Shown: one piece after another, positions 121 through 57,617 of the stretch
How positions within the stretch are numbered: the stretch's first letter is position 1
How the letters are laid out: every line of letters begins with the position of its first letter
DNA from: Alloascoidea africana
Taxonomy: Eukaryota > Ascomycota > Alloascoideomycetes > Alloascoideales > Alloascoideaceae
NCBI GenBank assembly: GCA_030581615.1
Contig: JAKTTT010000014.1
Location: 1 to 64,000 of the forward strand
DNA length: 64,000 nucleotides
Direction of reading: 5' to 3'
The notes under the pieces: generated by a model
The model's database searches: none
The model's input: only the letters and a program-made list of their open reading frames with translations
What the model was told of the DNA's origin: nothing
Position numbers and translations under genes: made by a program

Positions 121-448
121 TGTAAGGGAAACCACGGCAACGGACCAATGGAATCCTAAGGAAGATTCCATTGACAATGCCACCTATGCTTTATTTTATT
201 CTGTCTATTTTTACTCTTATGCGCTGTTCTTAAGCTATGTTTGTCTTTTAGAACATTCTATATAATTCTTATTCTTAGCTTTACATAGGACTATTTAAAA
301 GGGCGGTTCCACCCTGGAGAAGAGGACAATAAGAGAAGACGATCATCTTTCACTTCAAACCCTTCAAATCTTAAATCCTCTCCCTGCTTCCTCCTTCTTC
401 TCCTTTGAAAGTAACAGCAGTAGGACCCTGAAACCTATTGTTGTTACA
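121..448 (+). repeat. 5' LTR of the Ty3/Gypsy element
   Basis: A 328-base terminal repeat with TGT...ACA ends. It contains a TATA-like stretch (tatttaaaagg) near 290 and is followed directly by the putative tRNA primer site. It is nearly identical to the copy at 3421-3751. Confidence 0.9.
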
Positions 449-2896
449 ATTGGTAGCGATGCAAGATTCAGAGAACCACATCGAAGAACCTAGACTAGAA
501 TCCATGGAACAATTAACACCAGAATTGAGATTTCTCCAAGAAATGGGAGGAACAATGAGAGCGATGTATGATACATTAAATCAACAGCAAAGTGTCATAA
601 ATGCTCTTGTTGAAAGAATTGAAGTTTCCTCAACTGTCCAAGAAGAAACAAGAAAGAAGCTAAACAAAGTAGCTGATCCTTCAAAAAAAATGCCTTTTAA
701 ACCCCAGATCAAGACCTTTTCAGGAAAACGAGACATCCGAGAAGTCAACAACTGGGTGGAGCAAGTGGAATCATCGCTTGCAATATTCCAAGTTACTCAT
801 CATTCCGAAAGAATTGCCTGGGCTAGATATTTTATGGCCCCCTCTTGTCACAGATGGTTTGATGAAAACTCAGAAACCTTTTCAAACTGGAGTGCTTTCA
901 AAAGTGCGTTTCAAAGACGATTTTATCCTGACAATTATGTCGGTCATATTACAAAAAAACTATGGACAGCAAAACAAAGAACTACGATTTCAAGTTACGC
1001 CGAATATTTTAGACATTGGGACGTGGCCCTACCCAAAGAAGCCATGTCTATCGACGTTCGGAAGGAAATGTTTATCAACGGATTAAAACCCACAGTACAA
1101 TCGCATGTCACTAATACGATCAGAGATTGCAACACCATGGAAGAAGTTTATACAATTGATTCAGTTTATGATCGCGCGCCAGCGACCCGTAATGATGAAT
1201 TCAGAAAGTTTTCTCAGCCAAGAACAACAGACTTTGATATGAAGATGGACCTAGACTTCGTCAAAGCTTCTACAGACGAAAAAGAAAGACTTAGAAAAGA
1301 AGGACGATGCTATAATTGCAAACAGAAAGGACATCTGTTCTTCAATTGCCCAAAGAATCAAAAGAAACTTCAGAGATCAATGACAGTCTCTGCCCTGGAG
1401 GCGGAAAACGAGCAGGATCAAACCTTGACTACTATGGAACTGGACTTATGCGATGTGAAGGCGAAGTTTGGAGTACCAAACCATAAACTATTCTTGGTTC
1501 CATTTATAGTCAACGGTAAAGAAGTCGAGTGTCTGATCGACTCTGGATGCACTACTAACGTAATAACCCAAGAAATGATAGCAACATTGGGAATGAACAA
1601 TCAAGTTAAGCCAGTACAATCAACCATCAAGATAGGAACAGCGGAAAAAGGGAATTCTGGAATAAGGACCATTGGCGCTGTTAAACTTCACCTTACTTTT
1701 CATAACATTAAAGAAACTGTCCCTTTCTATGTGGTAAGTAAACTAACAAGACCTATAATGCTCGGAAAACCATACGTGGCCAACCACCAATACTGGATCG
1801 ACTGGAAACGCAACAAATTCCATGGATATGACCTTGCTGAAGAATCCCAAATTGAATGTGAGAATGTTGAAGCGTTCCTGGTAGAATATGACGACTTTCT
1901 AAAGGATATTAGAACGATTGACTTTGGTTTAGCTAATGTAACCTTTACTGAACAAGATAAAGGTGATGAAGGATCGAAGATACCCGAATTTATATTGAAC
2001 GAATACTCTGACGTTATAAACAACGAACCAATTACTGGAGTGATTGAGAGACCAGATAAGTTTACCCATCGAATTGACTTAATTCCGGGATCAACTCCTC
2101 CGCCAAGACCACCTTACAGACTGTCATACGCTGAAAATATTGAGCTGGAAAAACAAGTACAACAACTGCTAAACGCTGGGTTTATTAGCAAGTCGACTAG
2201 CCCTTACAGTTCACCAGTTTTGTTTGTGAAAAAGAAAGATAACTCGCTCCGATTATGTGTGGATTACCGATTGTTGAACAATCAGACCGTGAAGAATAAA
2301 TTCCCATTACCATTGATTGATGATCTTCTGGACCAGTTAAGTGGTTCCAAATTCTTTTCGAAACTTGATCTGATGACGGACTACCACCAAATGCCTATTC
2401 GAAACAGTGATAAAGAAAAAACCGGGTTCACCACCAGAAACGGACATTACCAGTGGAATGTGATGCCCTTCGGATTAACAAATGCCCCAGCAACCTTCCA
2501 ATCAGTGATGAATGAAGTATTGTCCGACTTTATTGATAAATTTGTTGTTGTTTACTTGGACGACGTTCTTATCTATTCCAAAACAAAAGAAGAACACGAG
2601 AAGCATATTCGACAGGTTTTGGACAAATTCCGTATCCATAAGTTTGTTGCCAAACAGAAGAAATGTGCATTTGGACTCAGCAGATTACACTATTTAGGGT
2701 TTGTGATTTCAGATAAAGGAATTGAAGTGGATGAATCCAAAGCCGAAGCTGTCAGATCGTGGAAAACCCCAAAGTCGCCAAAGGAAGCCAAATCGTTCTT
2801 AGGACTTGCAAACTTCTATCGTCGATTTGTAAAGAACTTTTCAAAGATTGCCGCGCCTTTAAACAGCTTTGCAAGCGGAAAAGTCGAATGGACTGA

Positions 2897-3513
2897 AAAA
2901 ATAGACAAAATAAAATAAAGCATAGGTGGCATTGTCAATGGAATCTTCCTTAGGATTCCATTGGTCCGTTGCCGTGGTTTCCCTTACATTCTCCCTTTAT
3001 CAGAATCTATGTCGTCCTCGACATTATCGTCTTTTGCAAAAGAATTCCATTGTTCTGCCAATGTATCCAACAAGACCTTATCTGCTTGAGAAAATATCCA
3101 GAAAGGCAACTTTGAAACCAATGTAGGATCGCAATCCGACCACGTAACATAAGCAGATTCGTCTTGTTTGTTTATTCCTAAGACTGCTGTTATCTCATTG
3201 ATCCGACTTAGTGATTCTTGTTGACTCTTAGGAATAAACAAGCAAGACGAATCTGCTTATGTTACGTGGTCGGATTGCGATCCTACATTGGTTTCAAAGT
3301 TGCCTTTCTGGATATTTTCTCAAGCAGATAAGGTCTTGTTGGATACATTGGCAGAACAATGGAATTCTTTTGCAAAAGACGATAATGTCGAGGACGACAT
3401 AGATTCTGATAAAGGGAGAATGTAAGGGAAACCACGGCAACGGACCAATGGAATCCTAAGGAAGATTCCATTGACAATGCCACTTATGCTTTATTTTATT
3501 CTGTCTATTTTTA
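2897..3513. repeat. Large inverted repeat spanning LTR and pol end
   Basis: The arms at about 2897-3182 and 3228-3513 are reverse complements of each other, separated by a loop of about 45 bases. Each arm carries the start of the LTR plus the last part of the element's internal sequence. The arms are nearly identical, so the rearrangement is recent. Confidence 0.85.
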
Positions 3514-8839: not shown

Positions 8840-9670
8840 CTAGGGGCGTGCTAATAATGCTTGCTTATCCAGGGGAATGTTTGAGGCAACAACTTGTATC
8901 TGCCGTTGTATGCTTTGATCTCGGACCTCTATGGTGATCTCGTAATTCCCAACAAAGTCAATCTCCTCCACTTCCGCACCTCGTCTGTTCTTCCCCGTGG
9001 ATAAAAAGATCTTGAGTTTCTCAACATTGGGCTTCACATCTACTAATTTTGATATTCTTTTAGCAATTTCAGCTTTCGTTACATTCTCTTGCAAAAATCC
9101 CGATTCAAGAGCCTCTGAAGAGATTGAAAGCATGGAAGGCAGTTTTTCAAGATAATCCTCTTGGAATATTGACTCCTGATGACCTTCTTCTGACTGTTCC
9201 ACCGCTGAAAAATCAAGATTTAGATGGCTCAAAGCTCTTGGAGCTTCTGTTGGTTGGTCAAATGAAAAAAGTTCAAACTCTTTCTTTACTATCGTTTCCT
9301 CCTGCACCGCTGGCTTGACCTTGAACTCCTTTAACGTCGCTACAGGAATCCGAGGTCCTTGTCCAGGCAGAATATAGCAAGCTCCATTCTTTGGGTGAAG
9401 ATAATTTCTCATGATGGAAGGTGGTACCTCCACTATTTGACCTCTAACCCCAATTGATTGGAAGTCTTTGAGTAGCTGGACCTGTATTTTCGACTTGCTC
9501 GAAGATGCATATCGTACCAGATTTAGCGATCTAGATAATGGGACCTCATGGAAGCAGCTTCTGCCACCAATAAAAATCGACATTGGTAGCGCTGGGTGTT
9601 GGAACTGACCACTGAGACCTGAAGAAATATTGCATCCCCAATTATACACACAAGTTCTGGTTTTACACAT
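8840..9670 (-). CDS. MRPL50: Mitochondrial large-subunit ribosomal protein bL9m
   Basis: The segment VQLLKDFQSIGVRGQIVEV followed by RNYLHPKNGACY is the signature of the bL9 N-terminal domain, which binds 23S/21S rRNA. The N-terminus before it is basic and Ser/Arg-rich, as expected for a mitochondrial presequence. The first ATG (9670) gives 276 residues; a second ATG at 9583 gives 247 and opens right before the presequence-like part (MSIFIGGRS). The equivalent second ATG is conserved in the chimeric copy upstream, so the start is undecided. The gene lies downstream of YIH1 and of a chimera that carries its own N-terminal region. The call as bL9m is firm. Confidence 0.88.
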   Translation of the reverse strand: MCKTRTCVYNWGCNISSGLSGQFQHPALPMSIFIGGRSCFHEVPLSRSLNLVRYASSSKSKIQVQLLKDFQSIGVRGQIVEVPPSIMRNYLHPKNGACYILPGQGPRIPVATLKEFKVKPAVQEETIVKKEFELFSFDQPTEAPRALSHLNLDFSAVEQSEEGHQESIFQEDYLEKLPSMLSISSEALESGFLQENVTKAEIAKRISKLVDVKPNVEKLKIFLSTGKNRRGAEVEEIDFVGNYEITIEVRDQSIQRQIQVVASNIPLDKQALLARP

Positions 9671-10111: not shown

Positions 10112-10927
10112 TCACTTTTTACGCTTTTTCTTTTTAGTTTTCGTTATTTCCTTGTTTTCATCAGGAGTATCAAGTAAACCAGCGCTCACTATGGCTTCTC
10201 TTGCACAAGACTTTATATGTCTGAATCTAAATGTTCCATGCATTATTAGAAAGGATTATTCGAGAGTATGACACCAAGATAATACAATACCTGGCAGGAC
10301 CGAGTTGTACTCCACCATACCATCTGGAAACACAAATCATGACGTTCCATAAATCCATAGACTTGAAAGTCAATTAGCATCAATTACTCAAGTTAAACAC
10401 AAAATAGTAGAACTCACTGTAAGTAAGTTTAGTAGTCTCCCTCCTGCAGCATTCTCTCCATCATCGTTAAACTCTTGGATCACAGTTCCATCAGGATTCT
10501 TTATTCTCCACGCTGTCATGTTGTGGAACGCTTTTGCAATCTTTTTGTCCGAGACCAGTTCTTGTAGTTTTGATTCAGCATCTGCTAGTGATTCAACTCT
10601 TATTGCATGACCCACAAAAGTTGATTTTCTATCCGTTATTGGTTCCGAGCTAGTCCATTTCTCAATTGAGTCGTTGGTTTGGTTTGGTTTCTGGCAATGA
10701 TTTCCATTCAAGCTTTTGTATGATCGCAAACCCTTACTTGCATTACAGCTGTATATATTAGAGTATTTCCACAGCCGCGCTTGAACTTTTGACTTTCCCG
10801 GAGCATATCGTACCAACGAGTACGGGATCCCATGCAAACGACTCGTTAGAGAGATGAATCTCACCATTGGTAGATACTTGATTTGACCACTAAACCCAGG
10901 AGAGATGTTTCGTGCCCAAATGTACAT
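10112..10927 (-). CDS. Chimeric gene: bL9m N-terminus fused to YIH1 IMPACT domain
   Basis: Exons 10418-10927, 10291-10361 and 10112-10226 give about 231 residues. The first ~60 residues resemble the N-terminus of bL9m next door (YIWARNISPGFSGQ against YNWGCNISSGLSGQ; SLVRYAPGKSKVQARL against NLVRYASSSKSKIQVQL). After a short linker the frame continues as the IMPACT (UPF0029) domain: EPITDRKSTFVGHAIRV, HNMTAWRIKNPDG, then CVSRWYGGVQLGPARF and a Lys-rich tail. Exons 2 and 3 are exactly 71 and 115 nt, as in the intact YIH1. Both introns keep donor, branch and acceptor. The RWD domain that binds Gcn1 is absent. Preserved frame and splicing argue for an expressed gene rather than a dead copy. If translated, the bL9m part could direct the IMPACT domain into mitochondria; that is inference. 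Confidence 0.75.
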
Positions 10928-11141: not shown

Positions 11142-12166
11142 TTACTTTTTGTTCTTTTTCTTTTTGCCTTTCCCAGTTGACTTGCTATCGTTATCATTGG
11201 GTAATAGTCCTGCGTTTACTATTGCTTCTCTGGCACATGAATTTATATGCTTGAATCTAAACGTTCCAGGTTTTGTTAGAGTAGAAAGTCCTCGAACTCA
11301 AGCAAATGAAGCATACCTATCGGGACCTAGTTGTATTCCCCCATACCATCTGGAGACGCAAACCATGACATTCCATAAATCCATAATCTTGAAACGTGGT
11401 TAGCATAAATCGTTCGCCTTTAAACTCTGTAATCTCAATTGCTCACCGTAAGCAAGTGTAATAATCTCCCTCCTGCTGCATTTTCTCCATCGTCGTCACA
11501 ATCTTGAATAGTAGTTCCATCAGGATTCCTTATTCTCCATGCCGTCATATTGTGGTATGCTTTAGCAATCTTTTTGTCCGAGACCAATTCTTGCAGCTTG
11601 GCCTCTGCATCCGCTAGCGACTTGACTCTCACTGCATGGCCAACAAAAGTTGACTTTCTATCAGTTATCGGTTCCGAGCTGGTCCATTTTTCAAGAGGAT
11701 CAGCTTTATGAGCAGAGCGTGCTTTATTAGAGTGATGCTTATGAAAGCGCTCAGTGTGCGGGATTGAGTCCACTACATCATCATCGTCATCATTTTTATT
11801 TAATGAAAGATCTTGTAATGGTGTCGTAATTTCATGTTCTTCATCTGGTTGGGACACAGTAGAGCTGGAAAGAGCATTTTCAAGCTCACTGAGAAAGTCA
11901 AATATGCACTCCTCGCCTTTACGGAAACATCGATCCAAAATATCATTAAAAAAAGATATGGTATAGGATGATTTGTTGCTCGAGTCTATGAAAGATAGTA
12001 CTGTTGGAGGATCTTCTGGGTATGATTCAGGAAAGGAGAATTGTAGGGAAATATATGTGTTTGATGGAACCACCAATTGTATCATACAAGGCCCTAGACG
12101 GGTCACACACTCTGGATATATAGCCTCTATTGAGAGAAGCTCATCTTCATATACTTCACTGGCCAT
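11142..12166 (-). CDS. YIH1: YIH1/IMPACT, inhibitor of Gcn2 activation
   Basis: Three exons (11447-12166, 11317-11387, 11142-11256) give 301 residues. An N-terminal RWD domain (about 1-105, with YEDELLSIEAIYPE and FPESYPEDPP) is followed by an acidic linker and the IMPACT domain (EPITDRKSTF, HNMTAWRIRNPDG, VSRWYGGIQLGPDRF). In yeast Yih1 binds Gcn1 through its RWD domain, blocks Gcn2 activation and also binds monomeric actin. Introns are 59 nt (GTGAGC, GCTAAC branch, AAG acceptor) and 60 nt (GTATGC, TTTAG acceptor). The splice between residues HLLT and IMDLWNVMVC restores the conserved family sequence, which supports the AAG acceptor. A Lys-rich C-terminus ends the protein. Confidence 0.92.
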
Positions 12167-30406: not shown

Positions 30407-33185
30407 ATGAACTCAGAAATAACCACGAGCTCAGCAGATGTTGAAATTTCAACAGAAATTGAGAATCAACAAAATTTATTCAATTTTGGGGCCACATTTG
30501 AAAGGGAAATGTTGGGCATCGACCCCCATTCTCTCAGCAAAGAGGAACTGGTGAAAGAGTTCCTCAATGCACAAGAATCTGTGAGAGAATTTATGTGCTT
30601 GATTAAAAAGGCAATGAGATTCCCCAATGAAGATGACTCAGAAGGCCACTCTGACATGGACTACATCCCTGTGCCCGATATCGACTTGGACAGAGGTGCT
30701 TTGGAAGATATAGAGATTGAAAACCATGCCAACACCGGTGTTACTGAGGTTGACCTCGGTCCAATAGAGACCACGTTCTGGGTTCAGCTGCCACAGGAAC
30801 CCCTTCAAGGAGGTAAGTATTATTGTGTGCAAATTCAAGTCACATTAATTGTCCACTGCTAACAGTCCTGTAATCGCAGGCCTTGAAACTGAAGTTATGG
30901 ATCCAGAGGCCGCACAAGTTATGGACGATGTCAATTCAATTTCCTCCTCATTGATAGAAATATTTGACCCATCGACACTTGAACTGGATCCATCTGACAA
31001 CGCATTATTAGAGCGTTTGATAGAAAAATCCAAGTCATTTAATGTTCCTAATGGACTTCAAGTAGAGTCATTTGCCGATGCAAAGTTTCTATTCTATATA
31101 AAATTAACCATAGAATGCGATATACCTTTTCATTTGGTACACTCTTTAACTGAGGAGACCGCCATAAAATACGGCAAGCAAGAATCATATAGGTATTCTT
31201 GTTCTCTGTGTAAACAAGGAGTAGCCATGGTATTCAAAGCTGTAAGTAATTTTTTTTCTTTATCAAATACTGTGATACTACGAGCATATATAGAATATAA
31301 GACTATAATATAAAAAGATGTTGAGAAGAAGAAGACTGTGATACTAACTGAAGGTTAAATTAGAATCGTGACAAAAAGAATGTTTCAATGAAACAAAAGA
31401 CTCGAAAACTTCATTCGGATCGCTACCTTCAGCGCCTATAACGATGAAAACATTTCTACAAAGATTTCTTCGGTGTTAAGAGATTTGTTCACAAGAGGTT
31501 TAGAAGTTGAGCCTGTTTCCGACATAGAGTTTCACCGGCTTGATTCAAAAGTGAAGCGCATATTGCGCTCTACAATCGCTGCGGATTCAATGCCGACATC
31601 AACCTACCCGCAATTCCTACTACCAATCCTTCTAAATACAAGGCAAAACAACGAGTCCTTTTGCGCATCATTTGAAGGACTTAGTCCTAATGGTGATCGC
31701 GTAAGAGTGGAGAACGGAGAGGAGTTACAAAGCATGCAAAATACATTCGGGAACTTCTGGATTTTCGACAGATTCTACTTGTCTGATGATAGTGTACTAA
31801 GTTATTTTGCTGCAGCCAAAGGTGTGGTTTTCATTGATGCCACTTATCTTCGTTCTGTTAGCATGAACACTGTTGACAGAATGCAGCTTCTGGTTGCTGC
31901 ATCAAGCGATGCCAACCATCATCGGTATATACTTGCAAGCGGCATCTCAAGAAGTGAAAACTCTAAAAATTGGACATTCTTTTTAGAGTGTCTAAAGCGA
32001 TCGCTCTTGGATGTCATGAAAGAGGAAGATGTTAATGCATTGGTGTTCATGTCTGACCAAGACAAAGGTCTTGAAGGTGCAGTGTCGAAAGTATTTCCTG
32101 GTTGCGGGCATTTTGTATGCGTGAAACACATGATCCGCAATATAACGCCCTTAACAAGACTTGCACCTGGGGATCTTGCTGCAGAAGGCTCAAGGTCAAA
32201 AAAAGGTTCTTCCCAAACCTTATCCAAGAAAAGAGAGCAGATCACGAAGCTAATTTGGGATATCACCTATACCCCAACAAAAGATGTCCACGAGCAGCTA
32301 GAGAAATTCAAGAATTTACTCGGAGTTGATGATTTACAAATGGGTAGTGCCTGCGATCTTTTTCTCAACCATAGAAATAGGTTTGCTCTGGCTTATACCA
32401 CTCAAAATGGATTGAGGTTTTTGGATGCAACCAGCAATGTTGTCGAATCCTACAACTCGTACCTCCTGGACGTGCGTCTTAGAGATCCAAGCTCGGCGCT
32501 AATCTATATTCAAAAAGAAATGGTAGGCAAGCGGAACAAGAACCTACATCAAATAGCAAAAGGCAAAGAAATTACTGACTTTGCCAGCCGCTGGATCGCC
32601 ACAATGGACAAGTTGAGTGGCTTTCTAGGCGGTTTCAAAAAGTTACAATGTGGAGAACAAGATGGAGGTCAGTTTGTTATTGAAGGGTGTCTTAAATCAA
32701 GCATTGGCGCATGCTTTGATATCCTCTACGAATATAACAAGAAGGAGGATAGGAGAAGCAACTATATAGCGTGTCGAAGAAGCCTATTTGAGGGTATGCT
32801 GGAACAGGCGCACTCTGTCGACCTCACACAAAATTCTTGCACCTGCTTAGCGGGTATGGACATGGGTTTGCCTTGTGTTCATATTCTGATGGTGGTTCGA
32901 GAGCGTCGTTTGAAGCTCGAAGACTTTATCCACAGCCGCTACTTTAAGCATCAGTATGCCCACCTCTCGCCATCCGTGGTCTCTGATCCAGCTAGCCTTA
33001 AGAAGGAATTGCAGGATGTGTTTCTGAATGGTGCAATAAGTCTGCCAGTCCTTTCACATCCCTCAGATATTCCAAGGCGAGGAAGACCTAAAGGCTCAAC
33101 TGCGTTGGCATTGGGGAAAAGGGCCTCTGCTAGAATGAAAGGAGCTCTTGATTATAGCTCCTCTAACAAGAAAAGAAAGAACTGA
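30407..33185 (+). CDS. Mutator-like (MULE) transposase with SWIM zinc finger
   Basis: Exons 30407-30812 and 30880-31241, then a third coding block to 33185. The N-terminal part is acidic and followed by a CSLCKQG zinc-binding CxxC. The core shows the MULE DDE set: D in FIDATYLRS, D in MSDQDKGLEGAVSKVFPG with CxxH (CVKHMIRN), and E in NVVESYNSYL. A SWIM finger (CTCLAGMDMGLPCVHIL) follows, then an AT-hook-like end (RRGRPKGS). It would cut and paste DNA. The second intron (31242-31363, TACTAAC branch, TAG) leads into a frame that closes after ~25 codons, while the main block is open in another frame from about 31399: either one frameshift or a further intron. Mutyl of Yarrowia is a known yeast MULE. 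Confidence 0.85.
30407..33185 (+). mobile_element. MULE DNA transposon, coding part
   Basis: The transposase gene marks a Mutator-superfamily element. I could not find terminal inverted repeats or a 9-base target duplication by eye in the flanks, so the ends are unknown. The element may be degenerate or the transposase may be a host-captured single gene. Confidence 0.6.
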
Positions 33186-57094: not shown

Positions 57095-57617
57095 CTATTT
57101 CGTACTGTTTGCGGGCTGCTTAAGCTCATCCTCTTCACCGTGTTCTAGATATTGCCAAAGGGCTTGTAAGCAGTAATAAGTGCCAATTGCCATAGCCACG
57201 ACTTTGACGAATGGGCGTCCAAAGTTTCTGTAGATGAGGAGCTAGAGGAGAAAAAAAATACAAGGTTAAGAATATGAATATGAAGACCAGGAGGGTATTT
57301 GGTTTGATTCTTACATGTGGAGATATCTCTTTTGCCTGTACTTTTATCTCAGCTTCAGGAGGGATTCCTGAGTCCGCGGGAGATTCCACTTTGAACTGGT
57401 TCTGAACCGGTGGAGATGGTGGTGATACTTTGTCTTTTGTCCCCTGTGACGATGCTCCACCAGCACCAGCACCAGCACCAGCACCAGCGCCGGTGCTAGG
57501 ACCGGTCTGGTTAAACCGCACGCGTGTTACAGGTCGTGGCAAACATGCTAGGGCAATGTAGGATGATCTGAGAGCTGGGCGTGGCAGTACTTTTGTTCTG
57601 AAAAGGAGACCCGACAT
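57095..57617 (-). CDS. Small mitochondrial-type membrane protein, unknown
   Basis: Exon 1 (57315-57617) and exon 2 (57095-57241) give 149 residues from the ATG MSGLLFRTKVLPRPALRSS, a basic presequence-like start ending near RVRFNQT. A (Gly-Ala)n run, coded by a gctggt repeat, and a Pro/Ser linker follow. Exon 2 holds the likely single membrane helix (VKVVAMAIGTYYCLQALWQ) and an acidic tail. The 73-nt intron is GTAAGA with CTCTAG. I do not recognise the family. The same frame stays open for about 100 more codons upstream, with other ATGs (for example at about 57853), so the N-terminus is uncertain. Confidence 0.6.

Follow-up and report, generated by a model that had tools for sequence, protein, structure and literature searches.

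The chimeric gene and its two parents

Genes that join parts of two neighboring genes may send an old protein domain to a new place in the cell, and such a case has been predicted in Alloascoidea africana, in a stretch of 64,000 nucleotides (contig JAKTTT010000014.1, positions 1 to 64,000; hereafter the window). The questions raised by this locus are what the gene lying between YIH1 and MRPL50 is made of, how it may have arisen, and where its product might act. The original prediction of one open, spliced gene built from MRPL50 and YIH1 at 10112-10927 holds to the nucleotide, on the minus strand, where the order is YIH1 (12166-11142), chimera (10927-10112) and MRPL50 (9583-8840). The features of the locus are:

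11142-12166, minus: YIH1 (RWD + IMPACT), parent gene; exons 12166-11447, 11387-11317 and 11256-11142
10112-10927, minus: chimeric presequence-IMPACT gene; 3 exons; 231 aa from Met1, 211 aa from Met21
10418-10927, minus: chimera exon 1, 510 nt from Met1
10867, minus: ATG of chimera Met21, counted from the translation
10762-10926, minus: 5' block, homologous to 9648-9463 at the start of MRPL50; covers the presequence region and roughly the first 7 residues of mature bL9m
10667-10761, minus: chimera junction segment, 95 nt; no source found
10666-10112, minus: chimera IMPACT part, from 'IEKW'; aligns with YIH1 from 11695
10362-10417, minus: chimera intron 1, 56 nt; GTGAGT...GCTAAT...CAAG
10291-10361, minus: chimera exon 2, 71 nt
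10227-10290, minus: chimera intron 2, 64 nt; GTATTG...TCTAAT...TTTAG
10112-10226, minus: chimera exon 3, 115 nt including the stop; lysine-rich tail at its end, as in YIH1
8840-9583, minus: MRPL50 (bL9m), parent gene; 247 aa from the nearest Met

After splicing, the frame of the chimera is open throughout and its GT-AG sites are intact. Two in-frame start codons (Met1 and Met21) are present, and 11 nt ahead of Met1 there is an ATG in another frame. As had been claimed, the exon lengths of 71 and 115 nt are identical in the chimera and YIH1 (exons of 720, 71 and 115 nt, introns of 59 and 60 nt), while intron lengths have drifted.

YIH1 carries an RWD domain (40.7 bits) and a UPF0029/IMPACT domain according to Pfam, and matches S. 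cerevisiae Yih1 (6BQI) with an E value of 9e-60. The spliced chimeric protein matches S. cerevisiae Yih1 with an E value of 4.4e-38 and PF01205 (IMPACT/UPF0029) over its full length (positions 1-107 of 107; 111.9 bits against a gathering score of 27), while Pfam found no RWD domain in it at E values up to 1. The IMPACT domain has thus been kept without the RWD part, as proposed. The alignment to YIH1, one of the checks originally proposed, is gapless from 'IEKW' onward over 144 codons (115 identical residues and 341 of 432 identical bases), and within the IMPACT core 107 of 125 residues are identical (86%, 18 differences). Two CTG codons are involved in this alignment, both opposite Leu codons, which is consistent with CTG being read as Leu and not Ser. 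Lysine-rich tails end both IMPACT genes (11142-11201 in YIH1 and 10112-10171 in the chimera, minus strand); for comparison, the S. cerevisiae Yih1 chain stops about 2 residues past the matched domain.

MRPL50 matches the yeast bL9m structures 5MRC and 3J6B (E values of 6e-9 and 1e-8), and its L9_N domain (PF01281) starts at 'IQVQLLKDF' according to Pfam. At the DNA level, chimera 10926-10762 aligned locally with MRPL50 9648-9463 with a score of 66, whereas 1000 dinucleotide shuffles averaged 25.2 and never exceeded 38; at the protein level, the 5' block of the chimera scored 102 against MRPL50, the best of 5000 shuffles reaching 54. By both measures, a recognisable MRPL50 block is present in the chimera. 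The match ends after 'KSKVQARLWK' in the chimera and 'KSKIQVQLLK' in MRPL50, and besides the presequence the shared block comprises the sequence just upstream of the nearest Met of MRPL50 and roughly the first 7 residues of mature bL9m. Since only some 7 residues of the L9 domain are covered, the chimera has captured the presequence region without the L9 fold; nor did Pfam find the L9 domain (PF01281) in the exon-1 frame or in the spliced protein. What was originally described as the N-terminus of bL9m is therefore the presequence region and not an N-terminal domain. Between the two homologous blocks lies the 95-nt junction segment, within which both breakpoints should be located. Searched as 10770-10667, it matched neither YIH1 exon 1 (67 of 100 shuffles equally good) nor MRPL50 (18 of 100) nor the plus strand of the window (16 of 100) better than shuffled sequence does; on the minus strand of the window the segment matches itself.

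Probable origin by tandem duplication

The arrangement probably originated by one tandem duplication event. The duplicated segment would have begun in the YIH1 linker and ended shortly after the start of the mature MRPL50 sequence, at about codon 40, so that intact YIH1 and MRPL50 would have been left behind with the chimera between them. An RWD-less IMPACT domain of YIH1 would thereby have been joined in frame to the start of MRPL50, which probably supplied promoter, start region and presequence. The gene order YIH1 - MRPL50(5')::YIH1(3') - MRPL50 and the strand are those that one tandem duplication yields, and the introns common to the chimera and YIH1 imply a DNA-level copy rather than a retrocopy. 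A single event also requires that both blocks be of the same age, and their silent divergence is not different: changed four-fold sites numbered 6 of 12 in the MRPL50 block and 26 of 45 in the IMPACT block (Fisher p 0.75), and silent changes affected 15 of 27 and 42 of 108 codons, respectively (p 0.13). No similarity was detected for the copied intergenic DNA predicted by the tandem model (337 of 500 shuffles equally good), which is not surprising considering that dS is about 1; since this predicted copy is not detectable, the single event is what we infer rather than observe.

Gene conversion between YIH1 and the chimera was also considered and rejected, in that the longest identical run of 22 nt was reached in 2067 of 5000 codon shuffles and no conversion patch was seen between the two genes. 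A dS of about 1 argues against an assembly artefact or a recent copy.

Purifying selection on the spliced product

Selection was measured pairwise between the two paralogues, chimera and YIH1, for which an omega near 0.5 is expected if YIH1 alone is constrained. The IMPACT core gave a dN of 0.075, a dS of 1.005 and an omega of 0.074 (2 delta lnL of 43.7 against omega 0.5 and 81.4 against omega 1), and a neutral chimera is rejected by the first of these comparisons. The two copies have thus diverged noticeably, as had been pointed out. When the C-terminal tail was included, omega was 0.131 (27.9 against 0.5 and 63.5 against 1); the lysine-rich tail itself gave an omega of 1.48, not different from either 0.5 or 1. 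Low values were found in each part of the core, namely 0.076 for the exon-1 part (2 delta lnL of 28.6 against 0.5), 0.142 for exon 2 alone (3.9), 0.010 for the exon 3 core (17.5) and 0.066 for the cores of exons 2 and 3 together (17.3). Because the reading frame of exons 2 and 3 depends on splicing of both introns, it is the spliced product that has been selected. Judged by these rates, the chimera is old (dS about 1.0) and has long been under purifying selection. We also polarized the 19 differing columns with S. cerevisiae Yih1 as outgroup, which assigned 11 changes to the chimera and 1 to YIH1, leaving 7 uninformative (p 0.006); on this count the chimera is evolving faster than YIH1 and is still constrained.

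The splice signals are not identical in the two genes. Both introns of YIH1 have the branch motif CTAAC and both introns of the chimera CTAAT, so that the claimed preservation of branch sites applies to their position but not to their sequence. An identical C-to-T change follows the branch-site A in both chimera introns (10227-10290 and 10362-10417, minus strand), and the donor of intron 2 reads GTATTG. All seven other introns that we accepted in the window end the branch motif in TAAC: CTAAC in the two of YIH1, in that of an ankyrin gene at about 8490 (by eye) and in those at 30813, 40715 and 60325, and TTAAC in that at 57242. The host genes checked by Pfam were YIH1, the ankyrin gene and LeuRS (40715). 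The underlying intron scan was crude: it gave 10 rows, one of them being chimera intron 1, and left chimera intron 2 and both YIH1 introns unreported. Five of its rows (28838, 30825, 39958, 53950 and 54020) were left out as doubtful by eye, among which 28838 reads CTAAT and 30825 is an alternative donor of 30813. A C-to-U change at this branch position leaves a G-U pair with U2, so splicing of the chimera may be weakened rather than lost.

These altered branch sites might represent the first damage to a decaying pseudogene or to a gene that has recently lost its function. CTAAT in both introns, the GTATTG donor of intron 2, the concentration of amino-acid changes on the chimera side (11 versus 1, with 7 uninformative; p 0.006) and a C-terminal tail in which no constraint was detected (omega 1.48, not different from 0.5 or 1) are all in line with such decay, but the frame is open, the GT-AG sites are intact and omega is low in each core exon. 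In neutral simulations started from present-day YIH1, all 5000 replicates at d=0.5 had more than 18 replacements, and 32 of them were free of stops. Replicates that combined no stop with 18 or fewer replacements numbered 1900 of 5000 at d=0.05 and 107 of 5000 at d=0.1, and none of 5000 was obtained at each of d=0.15, 0.3 and 0.5; any loss of function would accordingly have to be recent. We consider decay quite improbable.

The N-terminus and its presequence features

The N-terminus of the chimera was assessed by composition counts rather than by a trained predictor. Counted from Met21, there is no D or E before residue 66, 7 of the first 40 residues are basic, and the maximal helical hydrophobic moment is 0.46; counted from Met1, the first 40 residues hold no acids and 5 basic residues. 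As a background, 36 of 1685 forty-residue segments from 15 proteins of the window were acid-free, 5 of these 36 having at least 6 basic residues, and only 3 of 1614 sixty-four-residue segments were acid-free. The first 40 residues of YIH1 include 6 acids, and the N-terminus of mitochondrial LeuRS has 3 acids and 7 basic residues. MRPL50 itself gave 2 acids, 6 basic residues in 40 and a moment of 0.28 from its nearest Met, and 0 acids, 3 basic residues and a moment of 0.36 from the upstream Met, while the moment of an MBOAT protein (0.44) was close to that of the chimera. Considering the scores of MRPL50 from its nearest Met and of the MBOAT protein, these yardsticks are blunt, and it is the acid-free N-terminus and not the moment that is telling. 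By these counts, the N-terminus of the chimera has the basic-rich, acid-free and amphipathic character of a presequence. The best stretch that it has in common with MRPL50 is LVRYA, which we take to fit an arginine-minus-2 processing site.

The presequence block (54 codons, 29 identical residues between the chimera and MRPL50) gave an omega of 0.13, with 2 delta lnL of 20.8 against 1 and 8.0 against 0.5 and with silent sites near saturation. The chimera has thus lost the RWD domain, kept an IMPACT domain under selection and gained presequence features that are themselves under selection. Along the 20 codons upstream of the Met common to both genes, differences between the chimera and MRPL50 are distributed as 7/2/10 over the three codon positions, and 2 delta lnL is 9.5 against 1 and 3.6 against 0.5, a pattern suggestive of translation of this stretch, now or in the past. 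An open stretch is present upstream of the nearest Met of MRPL50 (9584-9670, minus strand), with an in-frame Met at about 9670. There is a hint, and only a hint, that both genes may start at their upstream in-frame ATG (10927 in the chimera and about 9670 in MRPL50).

The same observations bear on where the product might reside. The chimera might be a functional RWD-less paralogue of YIH1 that remains cytosolic and has obtained only a promoter and a basic tail from MRPL50. It might then modulate interactions made by the C-terminal domain of Yih1, such as that with Cdc28. The lysine-rich tail common to the chimera and YIH1 would suit such a protein, as would the report that Yih1 fragment 133-258 alone co-precipitates Cdc28 (PMC4503747). 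However, a promoter-only role requires neither a 5' block constrained as protein (omega 0.13) nor a presequence composition kept over 65 residues, and we regard a purely cytosolic paralogue as unlikely. The product might also be dually located, through a choice between Met1 and Met21 or through inefficient import, with cytosolic and mitochondrial pools that link both translation controls. The chimera does have two in-frame start codons, and the 7/2/10 pattern suggests translation upstream of the common Met, but with either start the first 40 residues are free of acids and include 5 (Met1) or 7 (Met21) basic ones, so import is expected for both, and the chance of dual location appears very small.

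Comparison with known IMPACT proteins and known presequence captures

A close relative of the chimeric IMPACT domain is found next door: its core is 86% identical to that of the adjoining YIH1 and has the same exon plan, but the chimera differs from Yih1/IMPACT in having no RWD domain and a new presequence-like N-terminus. Yih1 restrains Gcn2 by competing with it for Gcn1 through the RWD domain, which uses the same Gcn1 determinant as Gcn2, and overexpression of the RWD domain alone impairs growth under starvation, as described in passages of a review (PMC7140605). Having lost the RWD part, the chimera probably does not compete in the Gcn1/Gcn2 system in the usual way.

In lacking RWD, the chimera resembles bacterial YigZ. 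It retains each of the 16 columns in which YigZ is fixed to 90% or more and S. cerevisiae Yih1 agrees, as counted over a 94-residue fragment in a set of 32 rows (31 loci and an E. coli fragment) from one bacterial phylum. The chimera also scored slightly higher than YIH1 in four comparisons with bacterial entries: 54.0 versus 48.7 bits for TIGR00257 (YigZ), where the match covers only model positions 16-110 of 205 and the family cut-off of 167.95 is not reached, 31.0 versus 27.7 for PRK11568, 24.4 versus 22.2 for 2CVE and 22.9 versus 19.0 for 1VI7. Convergence on YigZ was rejected in spite of these scores, as the 19 differing columns, compared with the 32 bacterial rows, divided into 5 in favor of the chimera, 5 in favor of YIH1, 4 ties and 5 uncovered. 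The chimera thus differs from YigZ in falling far below the TIGR00257 cut-off and in having no convergent residues overall. A second, RWD-less IMPACT protein of a yeast is YDL177C of S. cerevisiae; as that protein is generally described, the chimera differs from it in being a sister copy of YIH1 with the presequence region of MRPL50.

Presequence capture and relocation after duplication are already known (PMC4045975, PMC2478720). Plant sdh3 genes took their mitochondrial presequence from other nuclear genes (PMC4045975), and the likeness lies in joining the ready-made presequence of an existing gene to another coding part; in the plant case organelle genes were returning, whereas the domain in the present case comes from a nuclear-encoded cytosolic regulator and seems to be a newcomer to the organelle. 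GLUD2 is a duplicate with altered mitochondrial targeting (PMC2478720) and therefore likewise a duplicate whose location changed, but through one substitution in an existing targeting sequence and not through capture of that of a neighbor. No paper containing both MRPL50 and YIH1 was found in the literature searched, in agreement with the claim that the arrangement is unreported. A mitochondrial IMPACT protein was likewise not reported in the titles and abstract starts among the matches listed, in a search that left most subscription journals outside.

Proposed product and function

The original prediction regarded a new mitochondrial protein with an IMPACT domain as plausible, and, kept in working order by long selection, the chimera probably does make one. 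The best explanation of the locus, and one that we consider likely, is a chimera of tandem origin whose product is imported by means of a presequence and acts as a free-standing IMPACT protein. Import into mitochondria would most likely proceed through the MRPL50-derived presequence, which might be cut near the shared LVRYA; in mitochondria, the IMPACT domain would work on its own, in a condition resembling that of bacterial YigZ, and purifying selection on the spliced product would have kept it since the duplication (dS about 1). Whereas the chimeric structure, the gene order, the homology and the selection are established, import, cleavage and a partner are what we infer.

As to the partner, a bacterial-type one may be guessed, with the mitoribosome in first place because ribosome association is described for Yih1 and IMPACT (PMC7140605) and free-standing IMPACT proteins occur in bacteria. 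The parts of Yih1 that suffice to bind ribosomes, actin and Gcn1 overlap residues 68-132 (PMC4503747); the chimera is without this part, so ribosome binding need not have been inherited, and the lack of residue-level convergence on YigZ likewise speaks against the mitoribosome. On the structural side, loops on a single face of the domain hold the features that are invariant between Yih1 and YigZ, and conserved molecules are suggested as binding partners (PMC4503747). A broader reading, which we put forward only as a tentative possibility, is that a domain of a cytosolic Gcn2 regulator moved into mitochondria in one step by means of the presequence, and probably the promoter, of a neighboring mitoribosomal gene, that it acts there on mitochondrial translation as YigZ may do in bacteria, and that the ancient function of IMPACT survives in this way apart from the control of Gcn2.

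A passage of the 2020 review still calls the function of the ancient domain of Yih1/IMPACT unknown (PMC7140605). A copy that is naturally without RWD, has long been under selection and bears a mitochondrial presequence would set the function of this domain apart from Gcn1 and Gcn2, and would allow a direct test of whether an IMPACT domain serves translation beside bacterial-type ribosomes. The locus is also a clear example, in a nuclear genome, of a protein probably relocated by capturing a presequence, with both parents still adjoining the chimera.

Other features of the window

Two frames of mobile elements were recognized by Pfam elsewhere in the window. The frame at 438-2918 (plus strand) is that of a Ty3-type retrotransposon with Ty3 capsid, gag, aspartyl protease and reverse transcriptase domains, and the one at 31473-33185 (plus strand) encodes a transposase of the MULE/Mutator family.
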